Assembly: GCF_011065405.1 (NCBI RefSeq)
Contig: NZ_CP047056.1
Coordinates: 1,572,747 to 1,636,746, forward strand
Reading direction: 5' to 3'
Source of the DNA: Succinivibrio dextrinosolvens
GTDB taxonomy: Bacteria; Pseudomonadota; Gammaproteobacteria; Enterobacterales; Succinivibrionaceae
Length of the DNA: 64,000 nt
Under the pieces are notes generated by a model. The model ran no database searches. It was not told the DNA's origin and saw nothing but the letters and a program-made list of their open reading frames with translations. The translations under genes were made by a program, and so were the position numbers. Below, piece after piece: positions 1-29,485 of this stretch. Positions within the stretch are counted from its first letter, which is position 1. Each line of letters begins with the position of its first letter.

Positions 1-1700
1 TACAAAATACCAGGACTGTGCCTTACCATCTCATATTTATCAGCCACCCCAACAAGAGTTTCCGTTGAACCAAGAATCAGATACCCACCAGGATTTAAGC
101 ACATGGTAAGCTTACGCAGAATTTCAGCTTTCACGTCATTTGAGAAATAAATCAGAACGTTTCTGCAGAAAATAACGTCAAACTTACCCATTAGCGCATA
201 TGAACCGAGCAGATTCATTGGTCTGAATTCAACCATAGATTTAACTCTAGGATCAATCTGCATAATGTTAGGATTTCTGGTTGGTTTAAAGAACTTAGAC
301 TTACGCTCTGCCGATAAACCTCTAGATAATGCATGAACATCGTATTGACCAAGCTTACAGGTTGCGAGCATCTCAGGAGACAGGTCTGTTCCAATGATCT
401 GAGTCTGTTTAGGATCAATATGGAGCATTTTTGCCATCTGCTCCTGAACCACGATACCGATTGAATAAGGCTCCTGACCTGATGAACATGCTGCTGACCA
501 TATTCTGACAGGATACTTACCTTTCTTAGCTAGCTCAGGAAGAATGAACTGCTCTAAAGCTGTATAAGGATAGGTATCACGGAACCATAAGGTTTCGTTA
601 GTTGTCATCGCATCTATAACAGCCTCCTGAATCTTGTTATTAGGAGTATTCTCCATTGCCTTGTTAATAAGCTCATCGACATTGGAAATACCAAATTTTG
701 AAAGCAGAGTGGACAGGCGGCTGTTAACAAGATACTGTTTGCCGGCACCTAAAACAATACCGCATTTTTCCTCAATAAAAGCAGCAAAGCGTCTGTACTG
801 AACATCAGTAACCTCCTGACCAGGCTCAACAGCAGGAGCATTTCCTGCATCAGAAGAACCAGAATGCAGAGGTGATCTTTTAGCAGTTGAAAGCGCAGCC
901 CTTGTCTCAGCAAATTTCTTTGCAAATTCATCGCTGCTGACAGGAGCAGAGGTTCTTGAACCTAAAGTTCCTGAGACCGAAGTGGCAGATGTCGCCGTAA
1001 ATGCAGAAGGTCTTACAGCTGTAGAGACTGTTGAAGTGAAGGATGAAGTCCTTGTAGCAGCGGTTGAAGCGGCTGAAGCAGTTGCAGCCATCGATGAAGT
1101 AAAAACAGATGGACGAGTTGCAGCACCGGCAGATGAAGATGGTTGCGCTGTAGTACCAAAGGCAGATGGTCTTGCAGCTGTAGTTGATGTTGCTGTAAAA
1201 GCAGAAGGTCTTGCTGTTGTAGCTGTAGCCGCTGATGTGGCAGATGCATTAGGAGCGGTTCCTAAAGTAGAAGGTCTTGCCATGGATGAACCAGCAGCAG
1301 AAGCTGTTGAAGCACTTGCAGGTGTTGGAGGAACAGGACTTGGAGACAAAGCTGCAGGACGGGCAGCAGTTGCACTGCTTACAGAAGTTAAAGGCACGGT
1401 CTTGCTTTGAGCCGTTGACGAAAATGCAGAAGAAGCACTAGGTACAGATGTTTTACCGTAAGCAAACTGTGATGCTGCCGAAGCAGTCGCTCCACCAAAA
1501 CCTGCCGGCTTAGCAGCTGCAGAGGATAAAGTTGAACCAGTTCCGGCTGTAAAAGTTGATGGTTTTGTGGAAGTCCCAGCATTAGTTCCAAAAGAACTAC
1601 CGCTAGTTGAAGAAGTTGAGGCTGGTGAACCTAAAGATGAAGAAAATGTTTTAGAAAACTTACCTTCACTGTTGTTATTATTTGAATTTGTAAATGTCAT
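1..1700 (-). CDS. cheR: CheR chemotaxis protein methyltransferase, 3' end beyond window, long low-complexity N-terminus
   Basis: This protein methylates glutamates of chemoreceptors using S-adenosylmethionine. The C-terminal part carries the CheR all-alpha N domain (from about residue 300, YRRFAAFIEEKCGI) and the methyltransferase domain, with the SAM-site motif WSAACSSGQEPYSI and the FCRNVLIYF motif. The last codons lie beyond base 1. What is odd is about 290 residues in front of these domains, almost only Ser, Thr, Ala, Pro and Gly, with RPSAF-type units repeated several times. Family members are usually about 270-300 residues in total. The ATG at 1700 lies 10 bases from an AAAGG; an in-frame ATG at 1709 is too close to it. 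The frame is open throughout. CheR identity is certain from motifs; the role of the extension is unknown. Confidence 0.93.
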   Translation of the reverse strand, partial: MTFTNSNNNNSEGKFSKTFSSSLGSPASTSSTSGSSFGTNAGTSTKPSTFTAGTGSTLSSAAAKPAGFGGATASAASQFAYGKTSVPSASSAFSSTAQSKTVPLTSVSSATAARPAALSPSPVPPTPASASTASAAGSSMARPSTLGTAPNASATSAATATTARPSAFTATSTTAARPSAFGTTAQPSSSAGAATRPSVFTSSMAATASAASTAATRTSSFTSTVSTAVRPSAFTATSATSVSGTLGSRTSAPVSSDEFAKKFAETRAALSTAKRSPLHSGSSDAGNAPAVEPGQEVTDVQYRRFAAFIEEKCGIVLGAGKQYLVNSRLSTLLSKFGISNVDELINKAMENTPNNKIQEAVIDAMTTNETLWFRDTYPYTALEQFILPELAKKGKYPVRIWSAACSSGQEPYSIGIVVQEQMAKMLHIDPKQTQIIGTDLSPEMLATCKLGQYDVHALSRGLSAERKSKFFKPTRNPNIMQIDPRVKSMVEFRPMNLLGSYALMGKFDVIFCRNVLIYFSNDVKAEILRKLTMCLNPGGYLILGSTETLVGVADKYEMVRHSPGIL

Positions 1701-1709
1701 CTCATCCAT

Positions 1710-2234
1710 GCCTTTACATATAATTACGAAACAAAAACATTTTATAAATCAAAATGTTCAGTGATCTTTATTATAGTTAATAAATAGCGTTTTTTTATAA
1801 AAAACAGATATTAATAAGAAAAAAGCCTTATTGTAGACAAAAATTTTAATTATAAAAATATCAATTTGATTTTTAAGCACAAAATACACTTAGCCGTTTA
1901 TTGATTATCAACAAAACAGCAAAACAATTCAGTCTTTTCAAAGAGAAAAAGGCAACCTCATCTGTGGCAATTTGCCTACCATATACAATAAAGAATAATT
2001 TGCAAATCAGAGTAAACAAAAGAAATCTAAAAATTTTGCGGATTAAATCACACCGGCAACACTATTATTTGTAAATAAGTGCGATAACTCCAACTTTACT
2101 GAAACAGCTACTCAAAAATCATATCAGACACATTCTTTCTCTATTTAAAAACTGTGTCTTTTAATACGGTCTGCACGGCTAGAATATGCTATTATCTGAG
2201 TAAGAATATTCATTTTCTGAACAAGGAAAATCCG
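1710..2234. other. divergent intergenic region between cheR and flgA
   Basis: About 520 bases, very AT-rich, between two divergently read genes. It must hold the promoters of both. I looked for sigma-54 (GG-N10-GC) and sigma-28 patterns and saw no convincing match. No small gene with a good ribosome site was seen. Confidence 0.5.
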
Positions 2235-2942
2235 GTGCTACAGATTATAAAGCAAATATCCTGTTTAGTTTTGTGGGGACTCTTTATTCGCCCTTTGACT
2301 GTCAATGCGACTCAAGCAGAGGCAGATTTCCTTTCAAATGTGGCAAAACAGTACATGCTGGCACAATTTTCCACAAACAGTCCAGATAAAAAATATGTTG
2401 TAAAAGTTGCAAAGTTGGATCCTAACCGCAACTACGGAGGAAAATGTTCAGGCTATCTGACAGCAGAACTCCAGAATACCGAAATAAAAAAGAGTAATGT
2501 CGTAAAAATCACCTGTTCAAGAAAAGAAAATCCTTATGTGATAAGTATTCCTGTAACTGTGTCCGTATTACGAGCTTCAATTGTTGCTGCATCCAATATC
2601 CAGAGAGGAAATGTTATTACTCCTAACATGATTGAAGATACCTATGTTAATGAAAACACAACAACAGCTTCAGTTATCAATGATAAGGCTCAGCTTGTCG
2701 GCAGTAAAGCAAAGAAAGATATCAGAGCAGGAGAACAGTTTAAGATAAGCGATATCACACTTATTGCAAAGGGAGATATCGTAACCATTGAAGCAAGTTC
2801 AAAGAATCTTTACATAAAAACTCAGGGAATTGCTCTTGATGAAGGAAAATTGAACGATACGATTCAGGTCAGAAACAGTAAAACCGGAAAAATAGTCACC
2901 GGAATCGTAGATGGGCCTGGAATTGTGAGAGTTATTTTTTAA
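2235..2942 (+). CDS. flgA: FlgA, flagellar P-ring assembly chaperone
   Basis: FlgA is a periplasmic chaperone for assembly of the FlgI P-ring around the flagellar rod. The C-terminal half has the SAF/FlgA pattern: SNIQRGNVITPNMIE, then KAKKDIRAGEQFKISDI, then IVTIEASSKNLYIKTQG and a terminal GPGIVRVIF. I place the start at the GTG at 2235 because an AAGGA lies 8-9 bases upstream and because it gives a clean signal peptide (hydrophobic stretch ending near VNA). A longer frame from a GTG at 2154 has no ribosome site and would bury the signal peptide. The result is about 235 residues, close to the E. coli length of 219. It reads in the same direction as flgM, about 160 bases further on. Confidence 0.92.
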   Translation: MLQIIKQISCLVLWGLFIRPLTVNATQAEADFLSNVAKQYMLAQFSTNSPDKKYVVKVAKLDPNRNYGGKCSGYLTAELQNTEIKKSNVVKITCSRKENPYVISIPVTVSVLRASIVAASNIQRGNVITPNMIEDTYVNENTTTASVINDKAQLVGSKAKKDIRAGEQFKISDITLIAKGDIVTIEASSKNLYIKTQGIALDEGKLNDTIQVRNSKTGKIVTGIVDGPGIVRVIF

Positions 2943-2998
2943 TAAAATCAAAGAGAAAGAATTTTTTCAAAAAAATTTAATTTTTTTTAAATTTTTGT

Positions 2999-3025
2999 TT
3001 AAGTTTTTTTCCTTTATTCCGTTAA
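2999..3025 (+). promoter_or_regulatory. predicted sigma-28 (FliA) promoter of flgM
   Basis: TTAAGTTT (7 of 8 to TAAAGTTT), 11 bases, then TCCGTTAA (6 of 8 to GCCGATAA). Spacing equals the enterobacterial FliA consensus. It is about 75 bases before the flgM start, and flgM is a classical class III target. Confidence 0.6.
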
Positions 3026-3100
3026 CAAATTAACAGTGATAATTTAGTGATTCACTGATAATATATCTTAAAGAGAGAGAAAAGAATTGAGGGTAGTATC

Positions 3101-3427
3101 ATGGCAATAGATGCATTAAATAGCCGCATATATAAGAGCGGTGTCAAAGAGTCCGTTGCTACTGCCAAAAACGTAGCACAAAGTCCAATTGAGAATGTCG
3201 CAAAAGAGGCATTATCAAAAGCAGGCGCAGATTCTGTAGTTCTGACAAGCAATGCACAGATTCTGACAAAAGGCACTCAAAAAGCAAAAGATGCCTCTGG
3301 GATAGATTTAACCAAGGTAGAAAAATTAAAAAATGCAATAAAGGATGGCTCATATAAGATAGATTATGAATCTGTAGCAAATAAGCTGATTGATTCTGAG
3401 GACGAGCTGTCTTCCATATTTGGATAA
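3101..3427 (+). CDS. flgM: FlgM, anti-sigma-28 factor
   Basis: FlgM binds sigma-28 (FliA) and holds late flagellar genes off until it is exported through the finished hook. At 108 residues it has the family length (about 100). The conserved C-terminal half is visible: DSVVLTSNAQIL, then DLTKVEKLKNAIKDGSYKID and YESVANKLI. The start ATG follows GAGGG at good spacing. A predicted FliA promoter lies upstream and a strong terminator follows after an unusual structured 3' UTR. Odd: flgN, normally the next gene, is on the opposite strand 2 kb away. Confidence 0.93.
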   Translation: MAIDALNSRIYKSGVKESVATAKNVAQSPIENVAKEALSKAGADSVVLTSNAQILTKGTQKAKDASGIDLTKVEKLKNAIKDGSYKIDYESVANKLIDSEDELSSIFG

Positions 3428-3428
3428 G

Positions 3429-3488
3429 CTCTGTTTTGCAGGAGAACAGAGTATCCCAATTAAACCTCATTTTTGCAGGAGGATGAGG
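3429..3488 (+). ncRNA. flgM 3' UTR: twin hairpins with GGA loops, possible CsrA-binding RNA
   Basis: Two consecutive hairpins follow the flgM stop. The first has stem CTCTGTT/AACAGAG (3429-3435 with 3445-3451) and loop TTGCAGGAG. The second has stem CCTCAT/ATGAGG (3465-3470 with 3483-3488) and loop TTTTGCAGGAGG. The stems differ in sequence, but both loops expose the same TTGCAGGAG, and GGA in a hairpin loop is the CsrA recognition element. A terminator follows at 3494. The structure is seen directly; CsrA binding is inference. Confidence 0.5.
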
Positions 3489-3493
3489 TCTTA

Positions 3494-3524
3494 CCCAGCA
3501 ACCAGTTGCTGGGTTTGTTTTTTT
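3494..3524 (+). terminator. rho-independent terminator after flgM
   Basis: CCCAGCAAC pairs with GTTGCTGGG and is followed by TTTGTTTTTTT. Strong stem and uridine tract on the plus strand. Confidence 0.9.
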
Positions 3525-3550
3525 ATAACTAAGGACAAAATCGTATTTAC

Positions 3551-3655
3551 TTACGCAAGCAAAAATTTATTACCCCATCTTACAGCGTAAACAAACATAC
3601 AAAATTCTAGAATTATTGCAACTACTCCTAAAATTACGATAGCAAGATCAGACAT
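3551..3655 (-). CDS. 34-residue single-span membrane peptide
   Basis: I do not recognise this gene. It encodes 34 residues beginning MSDLAIVILGVVAIILEF, one hydrophobic segment followed by a short basic tail (RWGNKF). The ATG is preceded by GGAGACTGAAA, a good ribosome site. The same leader, GGAGACTAGAA, precedes the neighbouring 30-residue gene, and 12 bases (AACCAGTTGCTG) beyond its 3' end recur at 3714, so the two may be copies of one unit. Possible roles include a small membrane regulator or a toxin; nothing visible decides this. Confidence 0.5.
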   Translation of the reverse strand: MSDLAIVILGVVAIILEFCMFVYAVRWGNKFLLA

Positions 3656-3820
3656 TTTCAGTCTCCAAATATACAAAAAAAATCAAACAGGATACGCATA
3701 ATCCGAAAACGAAAACCAGTTGCTGAAGTTGTTTTTTTTAGAAATAAATCTTGTTTACGTACGCTGTTTCTTTAGTCATAGCATCTTGCTAACCACTTCA
3801 TACTATTTATACTGGAATCA

Positions 3821-3913
3821 CTACTTAAAAGCTCTTTTTGCTAAATAAAAAAAGACACCAAAACAAATAAATATTGAAACAAAACAAACAATTGTTAGTA
3901 TTAGTCCATACAT
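3821..3913 (-). CDS. 30-residue single-span membrane peptide
   Basis: Unrecognised. The 30 residues start MYGLILTIVCFVSIFICF and end in YLAKRAFK, a single membrane helix with a basic C-terminus. The ribosome site GGAGACTAGAA is nearly identical to that of the 34-residue gene downstream on the same strand. It starts 18 bases after the stop of the preceding 64-residue gene, so these look co-transcribed. Confidence 0.5.
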   Translation of the reverse strand: MYGLILTIVCFVSIFICFGVFFYLAKRAFK

Positions 3914-3931
3914 TTCTAGTCTCCATTCTTT

Positions 3932-4126
3932 TCAGCCAAGCTCAAAAAAAATAAACTCAACAAACAAAGAGGTTAGAGTTATTACTGATGCTGTCCCCGT
4001 TGTAAGCTCATATTCATAAATTCTCTTATGATTAACGATTGCATATCCAAAGATACTCAAAATAGCTGTTACATCAATGACCAAGAAGGATTTAGTTAAA
4101 TCTATATAATTCTGAATTTTCCTCAT
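3932..4126 (-). CDS. small two-span membrane protein, hypothetical
   Basis: Unrecognised. From the ATG at 4126 it has 64 residues with two hydrophobic segments (SFLVIDVTAILSIFGYAIV and ASVITLTSLFVEFIFFELG) around a polar loop (NHKRIYEYELTTG). An ATG at 4135 in frame is too close to the AAGG motif, which suits the 4126 start better. It heads a row of three tiny leftward membrane-protein genes placed between flgM and an AAA ATPase. Confidence 0.45.
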   Translation of the reverse strand: MRKIQNYIDLTKSFLVIDVTAILSIFGYAIVNHKRIYEYELTTGTASVITLTSLFVEFIFFELG

Positions 4127-4252
4127 ACTGTACATGCCTTGAATTATAGACTATTTGCTCTCTCAAAAATCAACGCATCAATCCCAAACATAAATTCAAA
4201 ACATTCTTGAACTCGTATTATAAGTTATAGACCTAAGAAAGATTTCTCATAC

Positions 4253-5230
4253 TTATTCCTGATTAACAACCACTTTAGAATTTTCATGCCCAAATATATC
4301 ATTGCACAATCTCATAACATATTCATATTCAACTGCAGGCAATCTTAGAGCAAAACACATCTTTATGATCTTATGAACATCCAGCGAAGTATTTAAGGAT
4401 AAAAGACCTGCTATTTTAAGTAAGGATCTGGTAGAAAAAGGAGCAGATAACTGTCTGATACCATTTTCAAAACCATTCTCTATAACCTGTCTTAAATCAT
4501 GAGCAAATTTAAGCAGCTTCAGACACATATCTTCATCAATTGAGGGGTACATACTACGGATCATGGCTTTTTCAACATTTAATTTAGGATATGACATTTC
4601 CATAAATCTAAATCTATCTAAAAACGCCTGATTAAGCAGTCTGACGCCATTATAGAATCCACTCAGATCACCATTTCCCTTTGAATTGGCTGTGGCAACG
4701 ACTCTAAAATTAGGATGTGGTTTAATGATCTCTCCCTGATTGGCAACAATAGTTAGATCTTTTCCTTCTAAAACATCATTCAGTACGGTTAAATCTCCAG
4801 GAGACATTAAATCAACCTCATTTAAGATCAGGATTTCACCATACATCATTGCTCTGGCAAGAGGGCCGTATTCATATACCAGTTCTCCATTTTTAATTGA
4901 GGAATGACCTATAAGCTCCAAGGATTCAGATTTATTTGAAAGGGTAATCTGTTCTACAGGCCAATTAAGTCTTGCTGCAACCTGAAGTACAAGAGAGGTC
5001 TTGCCGCAGCCAGATGGCCCGCTTATATAAAGACAGTCTTTAAATGGATGGACCAGAAACAGTAACAAATCATTCAGACTGTTAAGTTCAAATACATAAT
5101 CAGAATCATAATTAGGAATATGAGCAGTGTAATTTACGGGACTAAAGTCAAATTCAGAAACTACAAGCTTATCATTACCAAAGATATTACAAAGATTAAC
5201 CAACCCCATCATCTCTCCATTTTTTTTCAT
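4253..5230 (-). CDS. MoxR/CobS-type AAA ATPase, orphan
   Basis: A 325-residue ATPase. It has Walker A GPSGCGKTS (about residue 70), Walker B ILILNEVDLMSP (about 133), sensor-1 VVATANS and an arginine-finger region FLDRFRF. The layout matches the AAA_5 / CobS-MoxR group, which usually works with a VWA-domain partner to remodel or insert metals into target proteins. No VWA partner is seen nearby. The gene lies between three tiny membrane-protein genes and the flgOPN operon, so a flagellar or envelope role is possible but unproven. Start is not certain: the ATG at 5230 has a weak site, and a downstream ATG follows GGAG. Confidence 0.75.
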   Translation of the reverse strand: MKKNGEMMGLVNLCNIFGNDKLVVSEFDFSPVNYTAHIPNYDSDYVFELNSLNDLLLFLVHPFKDCLYISGPSGCGKTSLVLQVAARLNWPVEQITLSNKSESLELIGHSSIKNGELVYEYGPLARAMMYGEILILNEVDLMSPGDLTVLNDVLEGKDLTIVANQGEIIKPHPNFRVVATANSKGNGDLSGFYNGVRLLNQAFLDRFRFMEMSYPKLNVEKAMIRSMYPSIDEDMCLKLLKFAHDLRQVIENGFENGIRQLSAPFSTRSLLKIAGLLSLNTSLDVHKIIKMCFALRLPAVEYEYVMRLCNDIFGHENSKVVVNQE

Positions 5231-20232: not shown

Positions 20233-21269
20233 TTTAAACACAATCATTCATATTTTTAGGGATATGAAACAAAAACTATGCAACTACCGGTGTTGGTTCA
20301 AATCCCATGACTTTCAACCTTTCAAGATCTTTCTTACGAGTGTTGCATAAATGCCACTTGTTCTTGATAAGATTGATCTTCATAAATCTTGCCATAGTCA
20401 GTACATCATATATTGAGGAGATATTATCGTGTAGTTTTTTTACAGATTGCTCCACGTAATGATGTATCTGATCTGCTTTTAGTTCCTTGAATTTATATCC
20501 TGTTTCTGCAAAATCATTTTCGTCAGACATTGATCTGAATCTATGTCCGTCTATTGCAATCTTTGCATTTGCTGTAATGCAGTCGGCAATCATTGATTGC
20601 TCGTAATTATGTACACGGTTTCCCTTTCTTGCTAAGTCATCAAGTAATGTACCTATCGCAGTACGCCCCATGGAAATACCAAGATTCTTATTTTTTAATG
20701 ACAGCCAGCTCTGCTTATAAAAAGCGTTCACCTGATCAACATGGATAAATCCATTTGCATATATAAGTGTGGCATAGCTGAAGATTTGAGATGCTACATC
20801 CGCCTTAAAATACTGTTCAAGTTTTTTTAGAACTGGAGCGGCAACGGTGTAAATCAATCCATACTGTCCATATTCAAGCACTGTGATTTCGTCAACAGAA
20901 GCGAACTGCTCATCTGCCGTATAACTCTTATTAGGAATGAAACCTTTACCTTCTACAATTTTTCCGATACATTGTCCAGATGATTTACCACACTTGCCAC
21001 TACTCAGTTTTTTGGCAGAATATTTGTAGACGTAGTAATAACCACTGATTTCCTTAATCTCCATTCCCTTTTCTGGAGGATACTGCTTTAGTGCTTCTGG
21101 GACAGCCATAATTTTCACATCATATCCCTAATTCCCTAAAAGCAGTATTGTACAGATTTTTTAAATGTCAAATAACTCCAACACGCTTAAAAATAAAAGG
21201 AAATACACGATAGTACAATCTACAATCAATTAATTCATATCCCTAAAAGAATGAATGATTGTGTTTAAG
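20233..21269 (-). mobile_element. internally deleted insertion sequence (about 1.04 kb)
   Basis: Imperfect inverted repeats of about 35 bases bound the element: the left reads TTAAACACAATCATTCAT... and the right edge is its complement (33 or so matches). A shortened transposase gene lies within. No clear target duplication was found. Confidence 0.65.
20276..21109 (-). pseudogene. DDE transposase with the catalytic core deleted in frame
   Basis: About 278 residues are left of a transposase that normally has 500-600. The N-terminal part reaches the first catalytic region (AIDGHRFRSMSDENDFAET, Asp in AIDGH). The sequence then jumps after KFKELKADQ straight to a C-terminal segment (YDVLTMARFMKINLIK, GFEPTPVVA). 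The frame stays open across the deletion. It should be inactive, but the ends could be moved by a full-length relative. IS1634-like by impression; the family name is uncertain. Confidence 0.6.
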
Positions 21270-21790: not shown

Positions 21791-22579
21791 ATGGGTCGTG
21801 AAATGAAAGGTATTGCACAGTCAGAAAATATAGAGAACCTTGTTGATAAAGATTCAATATACGTTGATAAGACAGAATATATTTACAATCTTACAAAACA
21901 ATATGATAGAGTCTTTATTTCTCGACCTCGTCGCTTTGGTAAATCTCTTACGCTGAACACTATAGGAACTCTTTTTGAGAAAGGTGTAGAGCCTTATTTC
22001 AAAGGAACCTGGATTTACGATAAATGGGAGCAGGATAAATATCCTGTACTTCATTTAAGTTTTCTAAAGTTTTCTGTCACGAATTTAGCTGATTTTAAAA
22101 GAGAATTCTGTAACGAAATTCTTAAATTCGCCAAAGCAAATAACATTACCGGTTTTGATGATGACAATGAACCCAAAATTCTTTTAGGTAATGTTTTTTC
22201 TGCTATGCCTGATGGGCGTCAACTTGTACTTCTCATTGACGAGTATGACTGTCAGCTGACAGCCAATATCAACAATAAAGAGTTATATGAGGAATTCAGA
22301 ACTCTTTTCAGAGCTTTTTATGCTGTGCTAAAAGGCGAAAAGCATATTAAATTCATGGCTATCACAGGTGTTACCAGATTAAAGGATGTCTCAATCTTCT
22401 CGGTTGGCTCCGATATAAAAGATTTAAGCTACGATCATGCATTTTCACAGATGATAGGATTTACTAGAGAGGAAATAAAGAAATTCTATATTGATTACTT
22501 AAGGCTTGGTGTTAGCTTTGAAAAGCATGTAGAAACAAATGCTGTTACTGATGCCGATATTGAAGAATTCCTTAACAGA

Positions 22580-22657
22580 TGTTACTGATTTCCTAATTTG
22601 TCCAAAAACTGCTATTAAATTCTGTCCATAATTAAATGCTGCTATAACATTTTGTCC
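22580..22657. repeat. left end of transposon with three 19-bp transposase sites
   Basis: CTGATTTCCTAATTTGTCC (22585-22603), CTGCTATTAAATTCTGTCC (22609-22627) and CTGCTATAACATTTTGTCC (22639-22657). Shared pattern CTG...ATTnTGTCC, expected to be bound by the TnsB-like transposase. Confidence 0.85.
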
Positions 22658-22681
22658 CTAATATTTATTTAGGGATAACAA

Positions 22682-22699
22682 AGCCCCAAAAAAGGGGCT
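22682..22699 (-). terminator. terminator inside the transposon left end
   Basis: AGCCCC, six bases, GGGGCT, followed on the minus strand by TTTGTTA. It ends the five-gene leftward transcript. Confidence 0.6.
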
Positions 22700-22731
22700 A
22701 AAACGTAAGACAATACTTAATCTGTATACTG

Positions 22732-23349
22732 CTACATCAGCTGATTGTAATTCTTATCTGAGACATAGGTTATATTCATTTTTCCCTCTATTTCCTTTAT
22801 TCTCTCTGCTCCATCTTCAATAAACCTTAGCAGCTTTGCTACTTCGTCGATCCTTTGAGCAAATATGCGTATTTCATAGTTAAAATCATCCAGACTCTTT
22901 AGATAATCTTCACTGAATTCAAGCAGTTCCTTCGTTTCGTAGCTATTCAGATGCTCAATCAGATATATCAGTCTGGTTTTCCTCTTAAGCGTTGAATTTA
23001 TTCGGTAGTATTTATCCCTCAGGGAATCCAGTTTTTTAATGGAAGTTGCCAGCTCTACTGCATGTATGTCCTTAAGAGCGTCCACGTAGTAAAACTTAGG
23101 CTTTTCCTCATAGAGATCATCGGCAGCTCTATAGGATTGCGGCTCTCCTTCAAGGTAATCTGCAACCGGATCACATTCAGGATCAGGTAATCCTTCAATA
23201 TAAGGCTCAGTATTGCTTCCATTATCCCAAGGCAACGGATCATTGAAAACAAAGTGTTCTGAGCTCTGATTACTGTTTGTATTGCTGAACTCTTCCTGAT
23301 TAGATGTCTCCTGCGTAACAGGTGAACTTATCTTTAAATTTTCACTCAT
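22732..23349 (-). CDS. transposon accessory protein of 205 residues, unknown
   Basis: Not recognised. The N-terminal 95 residues are acidic and rich in Asn, Ser, Pro and Glu, probably disordered (FVFNDPLPWDNGS, PDPECDPVADYLEGEP). The C-terminal part is helical (LDSLRDKYYRINSTLKRKTR, LRFIEDGAERIKEIEGKM) and may form a coiled coil. AGGAG precedes the ATG, 13 bases after the ATPase gene. Position suggests a partner of the transposase or ATPase, perhaps in target choice, the role of TnsD/TniQ elsewhere, though no zinc-finger TniQ pattern is present. Confidence 0.7.
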   Translation of the reverse strand: MSENLKISSPVTQETSNQEEFSNTNSNQSSEHFVFNDPLPWDNGSNTEPYIEGLPDPECDPVADYLEGEPQSYRAADDLYEEKPKFYYVDALKDIHAVELATSIKKLDSLRDKYYRINSTLKRKTRLIYLIEHLNSYETKELLEFSEDYLKSLDDFNYEIRIFAQRIDEVAKLLRFIEDGAERIKEIEGKMNITYVSDKNYNQLM

Positions 23350-23362
23350 AGAATTCTCCTTT

Positions 23363-24217
23363 TTATTTGCTTAAGACTATATTTGGAAGCTCTTCATTGG
23401 CAAAAACACTGGAGATCATCTCTCCAGTCACCACGTTGGCAGACTGTGACATTGCGTACAGCAGTCCCTGGGTGCAGATTTTGTTGATTACTCTTGGTAT
23501 ACCTCCACTGCTGTTGGCAATAAGCTTAATCGCATCTTTTTCAAATAAACCATCGGTACCTCCAGCCGCCTTCAGATGAGCAGCAATATAGGCCCCAATC
23601 TCAGAAACTGTCAGAGCCTCGGTTTTACAGGTCAAATCAATTCTCTGTACGATGGCTTTACATTTGGCATTTCCCAGACAGCTCTGTTCCCATATTTCCT
23701 CCTGTCCGCACAATATCAGGGATAGAGGATTTCCTGAGTCATATTCAATGTTCAGAAAAAATCGTATTTCCTCAAAACATTCGTTTGAATAACGGGAGGT
23801 CTGCTCCAGACGATGAGCTTCATCTATGATGTAGACTACTTTCTTTCCTAAGGTTCTGGTAAGCCTTATTACCTCCTTGTTGAACTGTTCTTTCAGGTTA
23901 AACATATAAAACTTTGGTTTTATTCCCATCTGAAGCAGAGGAGCCAGGTAAAAGAATCTTGGAGTCATGGCAGAGCAGGAGATATAGAAAACCTGATACT
24001 CATCCTTATTAAGACCGCCGGTAAAACAGCGCAGGACCGTGCTCTTCCCGGTACCTACAGGGCCTGACAGCACCAGAAAACGGTTATCAGCTGCTGCAAA
24101 TGACATTTTGCTGAGAATTTCTCTGGTCCTGTCATTCTGGTATAGAAATTCCACCGGTATATTCTGTGAAAACGGCATTCTTACGAATTTAAAATGCTCT
24201 TTAATGTTGAAGTTCAT
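23363..24217 (-). CDS. TnsC/TniB/ExeA-like AAA ATPase of the transposon
   Basis: About 284 residues. The N-terminal segment FVRMPFSQNIPVEFLYQND is typical of ExeA-like ATPases carried by transposons. It is followed by Walker A SGPVGTGKST (about residue 54), Walker B VVYIIDEAHRLE and sensor-1 LSLILCGQEE. SSGGIPRVINKIC marks the winged lid. In Tn7 and Tn5053 relatives this protein selects target DNA and activates the transposase. GAGG lies 7 bases before the ATG at 24217, which starts two bases after the 74-residue gene. Confidence 0.88.
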   Translation of the reverse strand: MNFNIKEHFKFVRMPFSQNIPVEFLYQNDRTREILSKMSFAAADNRFLVLSGPVGTGKSTVLRCFTGGLNKDEYQVFYISCSAMTPRFFYLAPLLQMGIKPKFYMFNLKEQFNKEVIRLTRTLGKKVVYIIDEAHRLEQTSRYSNECFEEIRFFLNIEYDSGNPLSLILCGQEEIWEQSCLGNAKCKAIVQRIDLTCKTEALTVSEIGAYIAAHLKAAGGTDGLFEKDAIKLIANSSGGIPRVINKICTQGLLYAMSQSANVVTGEMISSVFANEELPNIVLSK

Positions 24218-24219
24218 AA

Positions 24220-24444
24220 TCAATCCTCATCTTTTTTAGAGTTCATTTCCGCCAAAGTGGTATAAGGGGAAGTGATGGAGGCAGCCTGTCTTATATCTTC
24301 AGATGACACTCCGTCTTTCTTCTGCTTTTTAAAGTCTGAAAGCTCCTGTTTATTTCCTTCCTTTTCAGAAATTATGTTGTAAACCTCCTTTTTCATGTAT
24401 TCTCTAAAGGCCTCTTCAGTGGTATAGCGATTCTCCTGTCTCAT
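24220..24444 (-). CDS. transposon small accessory protein, 74 residues
   Basis: Unrecognised. Very charged and helical (EEAFREYMKKEVYNIISEKE, KQELSDFKKQKKDG), with an SPYTTLAEMN tail. It lies between the transposase and the ATPase, tightly spaced on both sides, so it is probably co-translated. Possible roles are an adaptor between the two or an antagonist; the sequence does not say. Confidence 0.6.
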   Translation of the reverse strand: MRQENRYTTEEAFREYMKKEVYNIISEKEGNKQELSDFKKQKKDGVSSEDIRQAASITSPYTTLAEMNSKKDED

Positions 24445-24466
24445 TTTTCTCTAAACAGTAAATCAA

Positions 24467-25765
24467 TCATTGGATATTCCTTCTCGTAGGCCTCGGAGGA
24501 GAGGAGGCATGAAAACACTTTTGAGATACCTTCTCACCAATCTCGTATTCCTTAAGAGGAATACAGCCGTCGGTTTCTGTGTAAAGCTCAGGACATGGAG
24601 AATTGGGGCGGGTAATAATCATTACTTTCTTATCAGCCTTTATGTACTGAGGTTCAATCTTCCATTTCCTTTTGTCATACTTGATGTAATCACTGTAGAC
24701 TCTGCATGTTTTGGCAAATTCAAAAGCATTGGCAACAGCCAAATCATCCAGATATACAAGAGGAGTCAGATCACTATTAAAAGACTCATTAGGAGTTTTT
24801 CCGTTGAGAATTTCATTGGAGTGAGGAGTATCGTTATAAACTCTGATCCTCTCTGCAAAGCCCTCGCAGAAAGCGGTAAATCCCATTGATTTAGCCTTTT
24901 CAACCTCCACCAGATAATCATCAATGGTACGGTTGAGTCTTTCTATAGAGCCTTTCTGCCAGGCAGACCTGGGCTTACAGTATTTAAGAGTGATATTCAG
25001 AAGCCTGCAGGCATTGGTTACTTTCTGATTCCTGTACTGAGAACCTAAATCCAGATGTAATGCCTTAATCTGACCATAAAGCTTGATAACGTTATACAGG
25101 CCTGATAAGAATAAATCCGTATTGCCTGTGGTTGAAATCTGATAGTCCAGCACTTTTCGATGACAGTTATCTATCAGGATGGCAATGTAAATCCTGTCTA
25201 AAAGCTCGGTATGCTCATCATTCCATACGATTTTTCTTGCAGGCTCCTTGATATCGCCGACTAGTAATGCCATTCTGGTTTTAACCTGAAACCTACCCAG
25301 TACTCTTCTGCCATGCTGGAGTGCATTGCTAACCAGATCTCTTCTGGCAGCTTCATGCTCCTGAAGGTGCCTCTGCAGCGTAGAACGCTTGATGCGATTT
25401 TTAAGAGCAGGATTCTCTGATTCAAGACAGCGGATAATATTGGCAACACTGAGAGTATTGTCAGCATGACGCATGGCTACAGCTCTTTCTAATGCCTCCT
25501 CAAAACACTGAGGAAGTCTTTTATCGGAACGGCTTTCTCTATATGCCGGTGTCAGTCCGGTAAAACCTCCAGCTTTATAAGCTTTAAGCCAGCGTTTGAT
25601 AGTCTTAACAGAAAGTCCATAGTTCTCTGCTACAGTCCTAATCCTGGACGCACGGGCTCTTACGTCGGCAGGAGTATCTGCCGGCATATTTATAAGTTCA
25701 CAGATTATCTGGTAACGAATACCATTTACTTCTTTATTGCGCTGGTATTTATTAACTGCTGTCAT
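24467..25765 (-). CDS. TnsB/TniA-like DDE (rve) transposase
   Basis: About 432 residues from the ATG at 25765, chosen for GGAG 9 bases upstream; longer forms overlap the preceding gene by over 100 bases. The N-terminal helix-turn-helix includes SRIRTVAENYGLSVKTIKRW. The rve catalytic core shows LLVGDIKEP with further Asp in DRIYIAILIDN, LHLDLGSQYRN, and Glu in WQKGSIERLNR. The spacing from the second Asp to Glu is 35 residues, as in integrase-type DDE enzymes. It should cut and join the TGT/ACA ends by binding the 19-bp repeats. The exact first Asp is uncertain. Confidence 0.9.
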   Translation of the reverse strand: MTAVNKYQRNKEVNGIRYQIICELINMPADTPADVRARASRIRTVAENYGLSVKTIKRWLKAYKAGGFTGLTPAYRESRSDKRLPQCFEEALERAVAMRHADNTLSVANIIRCLESENPALKNRIKRSTLQRHLQEHEAARRDLVSNALQHGRRVLGRFQVKTRMALLVGDIKEPARKIVWNDEHTELLDRIYIAILIDNCHRKVLDYQISTTGNTDLFLSGLYNVIKLYGQIKALHLDLGSQYRNQKVTNACRLLNITLKYCKPRSAWQKGSIERLNRTIDDYLVEVEKAKSMGFTAFCEGFAERIRVYNDTPHSNEILNGKTPNESFNSDLTPLVYLDDLAVANAFEFAKTCRVYSDYIKYDKRKWKIEPQYIKADKKVMIITRPNSPCPELYTETDGCIPLKEYEIGEKVSQKCFHASSPPRPTRRNIQ

Positions 25766-26588
25766 TGAATTTTTCTCCATTTGCCGACACTTCAGTTCGC
25801 TTGAGGCTAATTTTCCAATAGGTTCGGGCATAGGAGATTGCAATCTGTGTTGGTAAATGAGGGACATATTTTGAGAGCAGAAACAGCATGGAGGAAATAA
25901 GGCTGTCTGCTGGATGTAAGTACGGACTGTCGTGATTCTTTAAAGGGACTGAGGATTGCTGAGGTGACAGGTAGTTTGTAAGAAGCAGCTTGTCAAAAAA
26001 GTAGTTTACATTTTTCTTAAGAGCTGAGACTAAAGCTCCGATCCTTGATTTTCTACAGGGCGTAATAAAATCTCTAAAAAAATCATTATCAGATTCATCC
26101 TCTGTTACAGAGAGTTTCCTGTTCAGGGATTTTATTATTTTCCTGGCAGCATGTCTTTCCTGAGCATCGGACTCAGATTGATTTATTATGCTTTCAGAGT
26201 TGATGTAGTCAGACGTTAAGTCCATCAGTTCCGGTAAATACTGTCTGAAGGGCATAAATATGCTGGGATTAAAAATCCCAAAGGTGGTTACTCCGCTTTT
26301 ATTACTTTCAACCAAAGGACATTTCTTAGAGGTACAGCACAGCCGTGGAACTCTAATCTCAAGCCTGCCCTTGGAACTATTGACTGCAGGGTTGGTAAGT
26401 TTCAACAGTCTTAGATTAAACTCAATGGCTCTCGGATGCTTATAGTAATAGCCAAATCTGGTTAGAGAGAATTTGCAGTAAGGACAACTGAGAGTTTTCA
26501 ATTCATCATTTGTGATTGTTATTGAAATTCTGCAAGTATCTTCGTAGTTTTGTACTGTAATAACGGGCTGTTGTGCTAAGATTTGCAT
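25752..26588 (-). CDS. transposon zinc-ribbon protein, about 278 residues
   Basis: The first gene of the transposon operon. The N-terminal third has CPYC (about residue 37) and later CCTSKKC, a likely zinc ribbon. Then comes TFGIFNPSIFMPFRQYLPEL, a pattern I associate with DUF6431 or ISL3-like zinc domains that accompany rve/ExeA transposons; that match is from memory and uncertain. The remainder is helical without known motif. It overlaps the transposase start by 14 bases, so translation is probably coupled. It may bind DNA at the ends or at the target. Confidence 0.7.
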   Translation of the reverse strand: MQILAQQPVITVQNYEDTCRISITITNDELKTLSCPYCKFSLTRFGYYYKHPRAIEFNLRLLKLTNPAVNSSKGRLEIRVPRLCCTSKKCPLVESNKSGVTTFGIFNPSIFMPFRQYLPELMDLTSDYINSESIINQSESDAQERHAARKIIKSLNRKLSVTEDESDNDFFRDFITPCRKSRIGALVSALKKNVNYFFDKLLLTNYLSPQQSSVPLKNHDSPYLHPADSLISSMLFLLSKYVPHLPTQIAISYARTYWKISLKRTEVSANGEKFNDSS

Positions 26589-26620
26589 TGTCAACTTTAT
26601 GTAATGGTATTGGTTGACAC

Positions 26621-26659
26621 GGGAGTCGTGTAAGTCGGGAAAACTTTGGCACGACTCCC
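26621..26659. repeat. perfect 10-bp inverted repeat before the transposon operon
   Basis: GGGAGTCGTG at 26621-26630 and CACGACTCCC at 26650-26659, just upstream of the first transposon gene. It could be an operator or a structure that limits read-in transcription. Confidence 0.45.
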
Positions 26660-26778
26660 CCCTCAGAAATTCAATTCAGAACTTCCTCTCCTAAATTTAG
26701 ATTAGCTTTTGTTTTTATTCCAGAAAACAGCTTAAAGATGCCTGGGTAGACGAAATATAAAGATCGCTGTTTGATGGT

Positions 26779-26858
26779 GGACAAAATATTATGGCAGAGG
26801 GGATGGAAAGGGACAGAATTTTATATCAATTTATGGACATTATTACTTAGCAGTAACA
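26779..26858. repeat. right end of transposon with three 19-bp transposase sites
   Basis: GGACAAAATATTATGGCAG (26779-26797), GGACAGAATTTTATATCAA (26811-26829) and GGACATTATTACTTAGCAG (26835-26853). They are the reverse complements of the left-end pattern. Confidence 0.85.
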
Positions 26859-27740
26859 ACAGAATAGCTAAACAGTATGACAGTTATTGTTTTGATAATT
26901 ACTACGAAAAAAAAGTATTCTCGACTTATTCTGTGAATAATTTTCTGCAGGATATTGCAAAGGATGAAAGAGTAGTCTTTGGAGATTACTGATACGATGT
27001 AGGTGGTCTGCCATCAATACTTATGAAATATATGGAATCGCTTAATCTGAATATAGAGAACCTTCTGACCTCAGAGATTGCTATTCCTTATAACGATTTT
27101 GTGAATCCAACCTCTCTAGTTGATATCAATGAGAATGTTCTGATGTGTCAGACCGGATATCTGACATTAAAATCAGAAATAGACCGTAATGAAGATGTTA
27201 TTCTTGGTACTGTTAATCGTGAAGTAAGCTCCGCTTTATTTTCCCTTTTAAGTCTTAGAATCTATGAAAGAAATATCTCTCCTTATGCAGCAGGAAAGAA
27301 ATACGTTCTTGAGCATGGATCTGCTGACGATATTATCTCTTTATTCAATAGTGTATTAGCTGTTTTGTCTTATGATAAATACCCAGTAAGAGATGAGTCT
27401 GTTCTTAGAGCTTTGCTTCAGGTTTACCTTTTAGGAAAAAATCATGATGTTCGAGTTGAACAGCATAACAGCAGAGGTAGAAGTGACATTCTGGTAAACT
27501 TTCCTAAACGCAGAGTTGTACTTGAACTGAAGTACACTGACAAAGATGCTGAGAAACAAAAGAAACTTGCTGAAGCAGAAAAACAGATCATAGAGAAAGG
27601 CTATGGTCTTGAAACGCTTGGAGACAGAGAGCTTCTTCAGATTGCCTGTGTATTCAATGGAGATAAAAATAAACGACAGATCACTGAGTTTAAGACAGTA
27701 AGATCCGCATGATCTGATTTTAAAGAAATATATTTTTTAC

Positions 27741-29485
27741 TCAACTTTTGCAGTTCAATATTAACTGATAAAGACTATATAGATGCGGTCTAGCACCACA
27801 TTTGCTGTTTAAAAATCAATTTCTTTATTTATTTTTGAATCGGATTAGAATTGAAGGTTTTGAAGTGAAAAATCACAGTTTTTATATTGAAAAATCATAT
27901 AGTTAACTGTGATTTAAATGGTGTTCTGTGTTATAATATTTCTTGCTAAATCAAATAGATAACACGAGAAACACCATGGATAATATACAACAGATCGCTT
28001 CAAATTCCAAAACTTTTTTATCCTTTTCATCTGTCCTTTCTAAGGAATGTCTGAATATCTCCAAACTTTTACATCAGAGTGGATTTAGAAAACGTTCTGG
28101 AGCGGATATTCTTACCATGTTTATGGTTTTCATAAAATCCATATTCTGTGGTGCTTATTCACTGCATGACAGGTATTCTCTAAACGATGTTGAGTCTCCT
28201 GACTGCAGTTACTATGCTCTGATGAGATTTATCTCCAATAGTAAACATAACTGGTCTTTACTGCTGCTTCTGGTTGCAAAGACAGCAATATCTATCATCT
28301 CATCTCTGAATAACAAAGGTCACATCTATACTCTGTGCGTTGATGACACTGTAATAGAAAGACCAAGAGGGAAAAGATAGAAGGTCTGTCTAGAACGTTT
28401 AACCATGTAATAGGAAAGACAGTAAAAGGTTACGCAAATCTACTGATTACCTGGACTGACGGTATTACCAATATCCCTGTTGCCTCTGAGCTAATGTCCT
28501 CCAGAAAAGAAGACTGCATAATCAGAAAACACAACAAGCGCATTGATAAACGCAGTGCGGGTGGCAAAAGAAGAGCCAATTCCGTTATGAGAAAACCCAA
28601 GCTTCTAATCAAGCTCTGTAAAGGTATTCTGAACAAAGGCATCAAGGCAGAATATGTTCTTATGGACACCTGGTTCTATTCAGACAGTCTGGTTGCATCT
28701 TTAAAGGAGTTATCTCTGGATTCAATCTGCATGATTAAGAAGAATCTGAAGTTTGCCTTTGTCGGTGAAACCGTAAGACATAACCTGAAGTACATTCTGT
28801 CCACCTTAGGTCAGCGTAATCATACTTCAGATATTATCAGCACTGTTGTGGTTCAGACTGAATCAGGTCAGCAGGTTAAACTGGTCTTTATCAGAAACAG
28901 AAATAACCGCAAAGAGTTCATTACTCTCTTAAGCTCAAATATTCATTTGTCAGCTGAAGAGATTGTTGAACTGTACTCCAGAAGATGGTCTATCGAATGC
29001 TGCTTCAAAGCAGCAAAACAATACCTTGGGCTGAACTCTGAATGCTTCGCCAGAGACTATGATTCCATCTGTGCTTTAAACAGAATCTCTTACATCAGAT
29101 TCACTGTACTTGAAATCATAAGACGTCATGAAGAAGATCCAAGAAGTCATGGACAGCTATTCAGAGATTCTTGCTCTGCAATAAGAACCATATCTTTTAT
29201 CGAGGCACTGGAAACATTGTCTGTATGTTTCACCTCTCTAATTGATGCCCTGGATAAAGCCGGTTGCATAGTAAAAGGAAAGCTTCAGGATGCATATAAA
29301 CTAGCCGAGGAGATTATTGAGAAATGGTATGATTCCATTTCAGAATTTCTCAGGAAACTCCTGAAACCTTCCAATATACCTGAGTTTCTGAATAATTAAA
29401 GAAATTGATTTTTAAACATAAAATGTGGTGCGAGACCGCATTTATTAGCCGATTTTTAGTTAAAATCGAAATGCAAAACTAGAGT
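27741..29485 (+). mobile_element. IS4-like insertion sequence, about 1.7 kb
   Basis: Long imperfect inverted ends of about 55 bases: both run inward from TTTTGCA through ATGCGGTCTnGCACCACAT. The exact edge is uncertain to a few bases and no target duplication was recognised. A perfect 11-bp inverted repeat (AAATCACAGTT at 27870, AACTGTGATTT at 27905) and a TTATAAT at 27931 precede the transposase. Confidence 0.7.
27976..29399 (+). pseudogene. IS4-family DDE transposase, frameshifted
   Basis: The N-terminal part runs from the ATG at 27976 to a stop at 28378-28380. It carries the first catalytic Asp in CVDDTVIERPRGK. The frame then resumes at -1: IEGLSRTFNHVIGKTVKGY, second Asp in VLMDTWFYSD, and the IS4 Y-(2)-R-(3)-E-(6)-K box in YSRRWSIECCFKAAKQYLGL. 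One A added in the AAAAG run near 28374 would join them. No good slippery heptamer is seen, so a mutation is more likely than programmed frameshifting. Confidence 0.85.

Follow-up and report, generated by a model that had tools for sequence, protein, structure and literature searches.

Transposons of the Tn7 kind choose their targets through TniQ/TnsD, TnsE or CRISPR effectors, and a survey of target selectors states that no report of one exists for IS21 (PMC10293859). Type V-K CRISPR-associated transposons (CASTs) are described as lacking TnsA and a resolvase; the same paper presents Tn5469 as cargo-free, apparently untargeted in its insertion and equipped with one TniQ, and gives TGT/ACA ends for IS481 (PMC11406308). 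IS21 elements consist of a transposase and an AAA+ helper and often have multiple terminal repeats, with 5-bp repeats in the case of IS5376 (PMC10122671). Here we describe an element in a 64-kb stretch of DNA (hereafter the window, i.e. the whole stretch analysed) from the genome of Succinivibrio dextrinosolvens (G000; one contig of 3.47 Mb). This DDE transposon is compact, has no cargo and is of a kind that is unnamed in what could be searched (catalogues such as ISfinder and TnCentral lay outside that scope). Its four genes code, in this order, for a zinc ribbon resembling DUF6431, a transposase similar to TnsB and IS481, an ATPase similar to MuB and ExeA and, from the fourth gene, a small protein. 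We consider it probable that this is a TniQ-less transposon of the TnsB/TnsC type and that its ATPase would be steered or regulated by the zinc ribbon and possibly also by the product of the fourth gene.

Like type V-K CASTs, the element has neither TnsA nor a resolvase among its displayed family matches. It further resembles them and other Tn7-like transposons in three respects: (i) the best match of a 14-member transposase profile in PDB is TnsB (7.2e-21, positions 172–443 of 473; entry 7svw, which we take to be a type V-K protein); (ii) its ends have TGT/ACA tips with multiple repeats; and (iii) its duplications in G000 are mostly of 5 bp. It differs from them in having neither TniQ nor Cas proteins, and in having the DUF6431-like zinc ribbon and a lineage-specific fourth gene. 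It also differs from Tn7 and its kin in the 6–7-bp duplications of its Bacillota relatives. With Tn5469 it has in common the absence of cargo and an apparent lack of targeting, but not the TniQ. IS481, a one-gene element, shares the TGT/ACA ends and provides the nearest NCBIfam model for the rve-domain (Pfam) transposase (116 bits, and 143 bits for the relative L061), yet these scores lie below the family cut-off of 224, and the element brings its own AAA+ ATPase along with two additional genes. The IS21 transposase model gives 37 bits (cut-off 160). After TnsB, the next PDB matches of the 14-member profile are retroviral integrases (4.1e-12) and IS21 IstA (1.3e-10; the IS5376 transposase is presumably an IstA of the IS21 family).

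The ATPase points to phage Mu as well. Its family profile is nearest in PDB to the ATP-dependent target DNA activator B, i.e. MuB (4.5e-11), and PHROG transposition families match both the ATPase (5e-16) and the transposase (9.9e-30). Unlike Mu, the element stands alone in bacterial genomes; the L061 transposase has no match in 50,697 phage records, and two relatives occur among 25 pattern matches on viral contigs. The ATPase also matches NCBIfam TIGR03015 (4.5e-29), which we take to be an ExeA-like model, and Pfam TniB (0.00034), both below cut-off. The initial annotation had placed the element in the Tn7/Tn5053/Tn402 superfamily. The TnsB match agrees with this, but the label is too narrow because of the IS481 and MuB affinities and the longer duplications in Bacillota. 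Its further statement that there is no TnsA, no clear TniQ/TnsD and no resolvase agrees with our searches, since none of the three is among the displayed Pfam (E≤1) or NCBIfam matches to the element proteins (for the ATPase, the best 25 of 32 and the best 25 of 98 families).

Boundaries and copies of the element

The boundaries are proved by five genomic copies together with a direct empty-site test. In G000 there are five transposase matches and five left-tip matches, which correspond to five copies, all of full length (4278–4282 bp) and 96–100% identical. The tips read TGTTACTG and CAGTAACA (both strands read). Four of the five copies are flanked by 5-bp duplications (ACAGA, TGAGG, GGTGG and AATCT), and the fifth, L007, by the 4-bp duplication ATTG, the fifth base being mismatched. 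The copy L008 sits inside another repeated element, of IS21 type, and in all four uninterrupted copies of that element the flanks join with the 5-bp overlap TGAGG. Two of these four (L137 and L138) have common flanks in a longer duplicated stretch and count as one insertion event, so that the empty site is seen in three independent places.

Each end contains three 19-bp repeats in a near-mirror layout, at offsets from the tips of 6, 30 and 60 bp on the left and 6, 30 and 62 bp on the right. The repeat pattern, with up to three mismatches, has six matches in the window, where shuffled sequence gives 0.12 on average; four of the six lie at the element ends, one inside the element and one elsewhere in the window. 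These terminal repeats are probably the binding sites of the transposase. The exact boundaries, the ACAGA duplication and the three repeats per end had all been read in the initial annotation and are confirmed here; repeats and duplications also accompany other insertions.

The window copy (L006) differs from L007 by one gap and no mismatch, and L008 from L009 by three gap columns and no mismatch. Eighteen mismatches separate the first pair from the second, and L010 differs from the others by 139–157. This near-identity suggests that the transposon has been active recently.

Relatives of the element and its setting in the window

The core of the element, as judged from gene order and similarity, recurs in Succinivibrionaceae and Bacillota. 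A transposase match is present in 8 of 60 related genomes, and one below 1e-25 in four of these, G000 being included in both counts. A scan of 84,980 species genomes with two peptide patterns returned 93 stretches and, from these, 50 confirmed loci, which by their titles belong mostly to Bacillota and Succinivibrionaceae, with single bins of other phyla. In 40 of the 50 loci the transposase is followed by the ATPase, encoded on the same strand, and five of the other ten end no more than 150 bases from the transposase frame. With the first seeds, a zinc ribbon was found upstream of the transposase in 31 loci. A widened model, built from those seeds and ten hand-picked open reading frames (ORFs) of the same 50 loci, matches in 48, a count that is partly circular and takes in a match at any position; in the remaining two, the transposase frame is cut by the contig end at which the locus starts. 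Annotated plasmids from Alicyclobacillus dauci and Ruminococcus albus have DUF6431, a DDE-type gene, an AAA ATPase and a small gene in this order, and one from Acidithiobacillus caldus has DUF6431 and a transposase but no annotated ATPase, in an incomplete annotation table. This is consistent with the earlier description of a TnsB/TnsC-type transposon with linked accessory genes, and of a zinc-ribbon protein ahead of the transposase: the same gene order is found, and a DUF6431-like gene is linked in that place, in distant relatives too.

We then compared the ends of these loci, which, where recognised, are of the element's kind. An end scan that required TG/CA tips, some inverted identity and a direct repeat ranked TGTT-tipped pairs at the top in L055, L061, L066 and L078; most of its top pairs look like chance, and only those with TGTT tips were kept. 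Ends with spaced repeats were found in many more loci by a scan for TGTTNNTG tips. As TGTTNNTG was the search pattern there, its presence is no independent result; the TG/CA-only scan found it in the four loci named. Among the eight Bacillota loci with both tips and enough flank, five have direct repeats, either of 6 bp (CATGAT and TCCGAA) or of 7 bp (ACTGGAT, ATCAGCG and ACAATGT, the last shrinking to 4 bp when the tip is placed 3 bp outward), and three (L044, L051 and L053) have none flanking the ends.

The family assignment of the zinc ribbon comes from the relatives. Four cysteines are invariant in all 28 sequences of alignment A4, the window protein included; the relative L037, outside A4, is without the first. 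Among Succinivibrionaceae relatives, L026 scores above the DUF6431 cut-off (28.2 bits) and L017 below it (22.4 bits). In alignment A6, which has no Succinivibrionaceae rows, all 29 zinc ribbons match DUF6431 (E≤0.1).

In the literature searched, DUF6431 appears in one paper of 5.39 million (PMC12323340), as a gene-table annotation on a Ruminococcus gnavus contig, and DUF6618, DUF6075, DUF5348 and three Pfam accessions go unmentioned. The titles and opening abstract lines covered do not describe this gene order. The initial annotation had spoken of a poorly described branch, which is in keeping with these searches. We regard the element as representing a real, widespread kind of transposon, present in bacteria of the gut and elsewhere, new as a described variant and built on known enzymes. 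Two loci may be added as side observations. The R. gnavus contig (NZ_NIHU01000030.1) has a DDE-type integrase and DUF6431 at its start, before genes of a sialic-acid (Nan) region (PMC12323340), and is possibly an unrecognised member of this transposon family. L020 (genome G048) has a 469-codon transposase followed by a 307-codon ATPase frame, with no zinc-ribbon match in the stretch read, and may represent a related engine from a different family in the same order.

Table 1. Positions in the window of the element, its parts and the interrupted host gene
Feature	Position	Strand	Remarks
Whole element	22580..26858	-	4279 bp; gene order right to left; based on 5 genomic copies
Left target-site duplication ACAGA	22575..22579	.	
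Right target-site duplication ACAGA	26859..26863	.	
Left terminal repeat 1	22585..22603	+	
Left terminal repeat 2	22609..22627	+	
Left terminal repeat 3	22639..22657	+	
Right terminal repeat 1	26835..26853	-	
Right terminal repeat 2	26811..26829	-	
Right terminal repeat 3	26779..26797	-	
Gene 1: zinc-ribbon protein, 280 amino acids, DUF6431-like	25752..26594	-	Assigned via relatives L026 and L017 and alignment A4
Gene 2, first part: TnsB/IS481-like DDE transposase (rve)	24467..25867	-	True start probably ~25765–25780 by alignment
Gene 2, severed C-terminal tail of the transposase (74-residue protein of the initial annotation)	24220..24444	-	Continuous in L009 and L010
Gene 3: AAA+ ATPase, 286 amino acids, MuB/ExeA/TnsC-like	23363..24223	-	AAA_22 5.4e-20
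Gene 4: 205-amino-acid protein, variable slot	22732..23349	-	No family above cut-off; last gene of the element, as first annotated
Host gene, 5' part (AAA-ATPase_like), interrupted	21791..22579	+	Pfam
Host gene, 3' part (PDDEXK_9)	26859..27712	+	Pfam; in-frame stop ahead

The window copy interrupts a host gene (Table 1). Removal of the element restores the frame across the junction, as had been proposed, but an in-frame TGA follows at the 43rd codon after the junction (window 26980–26995), which may reflect decay or a read error. The final 380 bases of the host gene's 5' part match 24 places in G000, their own included, at 74–100 percent identity, and one of these lies about 1.1 kb from another transposon copy. 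The ORFs at 27943–29399 and 20276–21118, which flank the element, resemble pieces of other transposases when their translations are read by eye.

The variable fourth gene and a second engine

The fourth gene of the window matches no Pfam or NCBIfam family above cut-off. We clustered the ORFs in this slot, taking by an automatic rule the longest frame that begins close to where the ATPase stops (in L046 the rule selected a different frame from the one first read), and obtained six multi-member families and singletons, some of which are probably not genes. The families are DUF6618 (n=8), a nameless family (4), DUF5348 (3), KfrA_N (2), DUF6075 (2) and a second nameless family (2), without detectable similarity to each other. 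Neither the window gene nor that of L028 matches others in the set, nor do they match mutually. Homology of these two was considered and rejected: direct BLASTP gives E=52, the L028 hit of a model was circular, the model having been built from both sequences, and an alignment at 25 percent was a forced one.

The type of the fourth gene mostly follows the transposase lineage, because in a quick tree of 40 transposases with 22 labelled rows, 8 changes account for 8 types, against a minimum of 7 and a mean of 13.4 in shuffles. As far as this tree goes, replacement is shown and frequent swapping is not. DUF6618 is an exception, with 6 changes alone, at least 4 of which are forced by well-supported branches, a pattern that an old gene with several later replacements might leave. 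In the Succinivibrionaceae branch, six rows contain three fourth-gene types without detectable similarity.

Searching G000 for DUF6431 gave five further places, none of them in the window element. All five belong to the IS21-type element mentioned above (4.43 kb; L135 at 315–4744, L136, L137, L138, and L139 with L140), and two of them have common flanks. Its copies are 98.6–99.8 percent identical, some with split frames, and their duplications are AATTTAC, GACAG, ACAAT and, as read from the flanks, GTTTGCC (i.e. 5 and 7 bp). The element scores 105 bits with the IstA model (cut-off 160) and 114 bits with IstB_IS21 (above cut-off). Its first gene, within the ends, is DUF6431-like, and its last two genes (138 and 160 amino acids) are without a family. 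Genome G081 has a similar arrangement of a DUF6431-like gene, an IstA-like gene, an IstB-like gene and a gene for 82 amino acids, and in G008 and G009 a DUF6431-like gene adjoins IstA- and IstB-like genes. Profile comparison relates the IS21-linked proteins to the zinc-ribbon family with 95.6 percent (E=1.1e-8) for G081, which retains all four cysteines, and 91.5 percent (E=8.7e-7) for G000. The DUF6431-like gene thus recurs with two engines. Two proposals for a closer tie between the element types were rejected: (i) homology of the window fourth gene and the last gene of the IS21-type element (E=1.2); and (ii) DUF5348 as common to both kinds of engine, since no Pfam match was obtained for the small gene that ends an IS21-type element.

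A broader view would be that the DUF6431 zinc ribbon is a general, transferable module for target selection or ATPase licensing, unrelated to TniQ and serving both TnsB/MuB-like and IstA/IstB engines, with the lineage-specific fourth gene setting the target. We offer this tentatively and regard it as doubtful; it is weakened because the fourth-gene types mostly follow lineage and because the IS21-type protein of G000 is without two of the cysteines. If it were true, IS21 would have a target selector.

Proposed mechanism, rival explanations and significance

In the reading that we favour, a TniQ-less TnsB/TnsC-type transposon, the transposase would bind the three repeats at each end, nick at the TGT/ACA tips and join these to target DNA at positions staggered by 5 bp. 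The ATPase, of the MuB/TnsC type, would assemble on target DNA, deliver the target and activate the transposase, docking on its C-terminal tail; this dock is suggested because the extreme C-terminal hook of TnsB touches TnsC (PMC11208146). The zinc ribbon would stand in TniQ's place and regulate or position the ATPase on target DNA; the fourth gene would serve to modify target choice or regulation and could be replaced. As the element has neither TnsA nor a resolvase, its insertion would be expected to go by way of a cointegrate formed by replication, which host recombination would then resolve. The initial annotation had likewise supposed target-selection parts of the element's own and, possibly, cointegrates.

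Several observations weigh against this reading. The window zinc ribbon itself has no match to Pfam DUF6431 (PF20020), and its predicted structure is poor (predicted local distance difference test score, pLDDT, of 58) and was not used for a fold search; the model of the L061 zinc ribbon (pLDDT 87) has 261 PDB fold matches, none at E≤0.001. A six-member transposase profile ranks retroviral integrase (1.2e-12) and IstA (1.2e-11) ahead of TnsB (4.5e-9), and with the ATPase profile VchTnsC (1.3e-3) comes behind not only MuB but also CDC6 and RFC proteins (2.8e-5 to 7e-4). Outside G000, 35 DUF6431 places were found and 20 read: 7 lie beside a transposase of the window type, 2 beside IS21-type genes and 11 beside neither in the stretch read (3 of them on pieces shorter than 2 kb), one of the 11, in G081, being IS21-linked once more sequence was read. 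The IS21-type protein of G000 is without the second cysteine pair and may therefore no longer bind zinc. The fit of the fourth gene to lineage points the same way, and it may be that the products of genes 1 and 4 regulate transcription or bind the transposon ends. Finally, the five insertion sites, few as they are, show no common target motif or gene.

This last point also favours the alternative that survives best, namely a plain multi-gene insertion sequence with near-random targeting, in which only transposase and ATPase take part in transposition, the other two genes being transcription regulators, copy-number controls or passengers. The insertion sites differ in sequence and in context (e.g. 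an AAA-ATPase/nuclease gene in the window, the interior of an IS21-type element for L008 and others elsewhere), there is no cargo, and KfrA_N, in Pfam a plasmid DNA-binding domain, suggests regulators in the two relatives that have it. However, distant relatives retain the zinc ribbon next to the transposase, and a DUF6431-like gene also accompanies a second type of transposase; both points suggest that it is more than a passenger. We regard this alternative as unlikely.

Less likely still is that the element is IS21-like in all but name and would use a circular or tandem intermediate, with no cointegrate. IS21 moves by such a route, and the element shares with it the two-part engine of transposase and AAA+ protein and the terminal repeats; moreover, in G000 both element types carry a DUF6431-like gene, which is the first gene of the IS21-type element. 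The transposase and ATPase families are nevertheless different: the ATPase is MuB/ExeA-like and not IstB-like, with IS21_help_AAA absent among the best 25 of 98 NCBIfam families, and the transposase fits the IS481 model far better than that of IS21.

The gene number bears on how the engine is built. The initial annotation counted five genes, one of them for a separate 74-residue protein between transposase and ATPase. The number is four, because this ORF is the C-terminal part of the transposase. A single 549-amino-acid frame, the 74 residues included, is open in two of the five copies, L009 and the divergent L010, and five Succinivibrionaceae relatives (L016, L017, L023, L026 and L038) likewise have one frame of 496–537 codons, among which the tail is modestly conserved. 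The frame is split in the other three copies (L006, L007 and L008), and in L008 the ATPase frame as well; the window copy as read therefore has no full-length transposase. That the 74-residue ORF is separate or made by a frameshift, the split being functional through programmed frameshifting, would suit these three copies, in which single-base length changes in homopolymer runs able to slip alter the frame, and the relative L025, split at another place of the gene (in L036 the frame is short). Set against the open frames, we consider it very improbable; the frameshifts may be real decay or long-read error.

Least credible of all is a Tn7/Tn5053 family member whose TniQ has diverged beyond recognition into the zinc ribbon. 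The zinc finger of TniQ (PMC10293859), the TnsB-like transposase, the ends and the 5-bp duplications are compatible with it. When both zinc-ribbon alignments were compared with 14 TniQ proteins, however, the probabilities were 0.6 and 1.3 percent, whereas a divergent TniQ kept outside the set as a positive control reached 97.8 percent. This led us to reject the reading, and the missing fold match and the Bacillota duplications add to this. G000 has no TniQ match, nor had the control genomes of that search, whereas 18 of 79 genomes searched from the same order have one. Because no TniQ match was found in G000 and the profile and fold comparisons are negative, the element is not to be filed as Tn7-like in the TniQ sense, while its engine should work like TnsB-TnsC.

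In our view, the most interesting point is that a DUF6431-like gene precedes engines of two kinds, along with a fourth gene that is particular to the lineage. A family that is small, widespread and free of cargo, and that has another conserved partner in the position of TniQ as well as such a fourth gene, would offer a simple natural setting for studying how AAA+ regulators receive an insertion target, and our reading offers a candidate function for DUF6431, DUF6618, DUF5348 and DUF6075.

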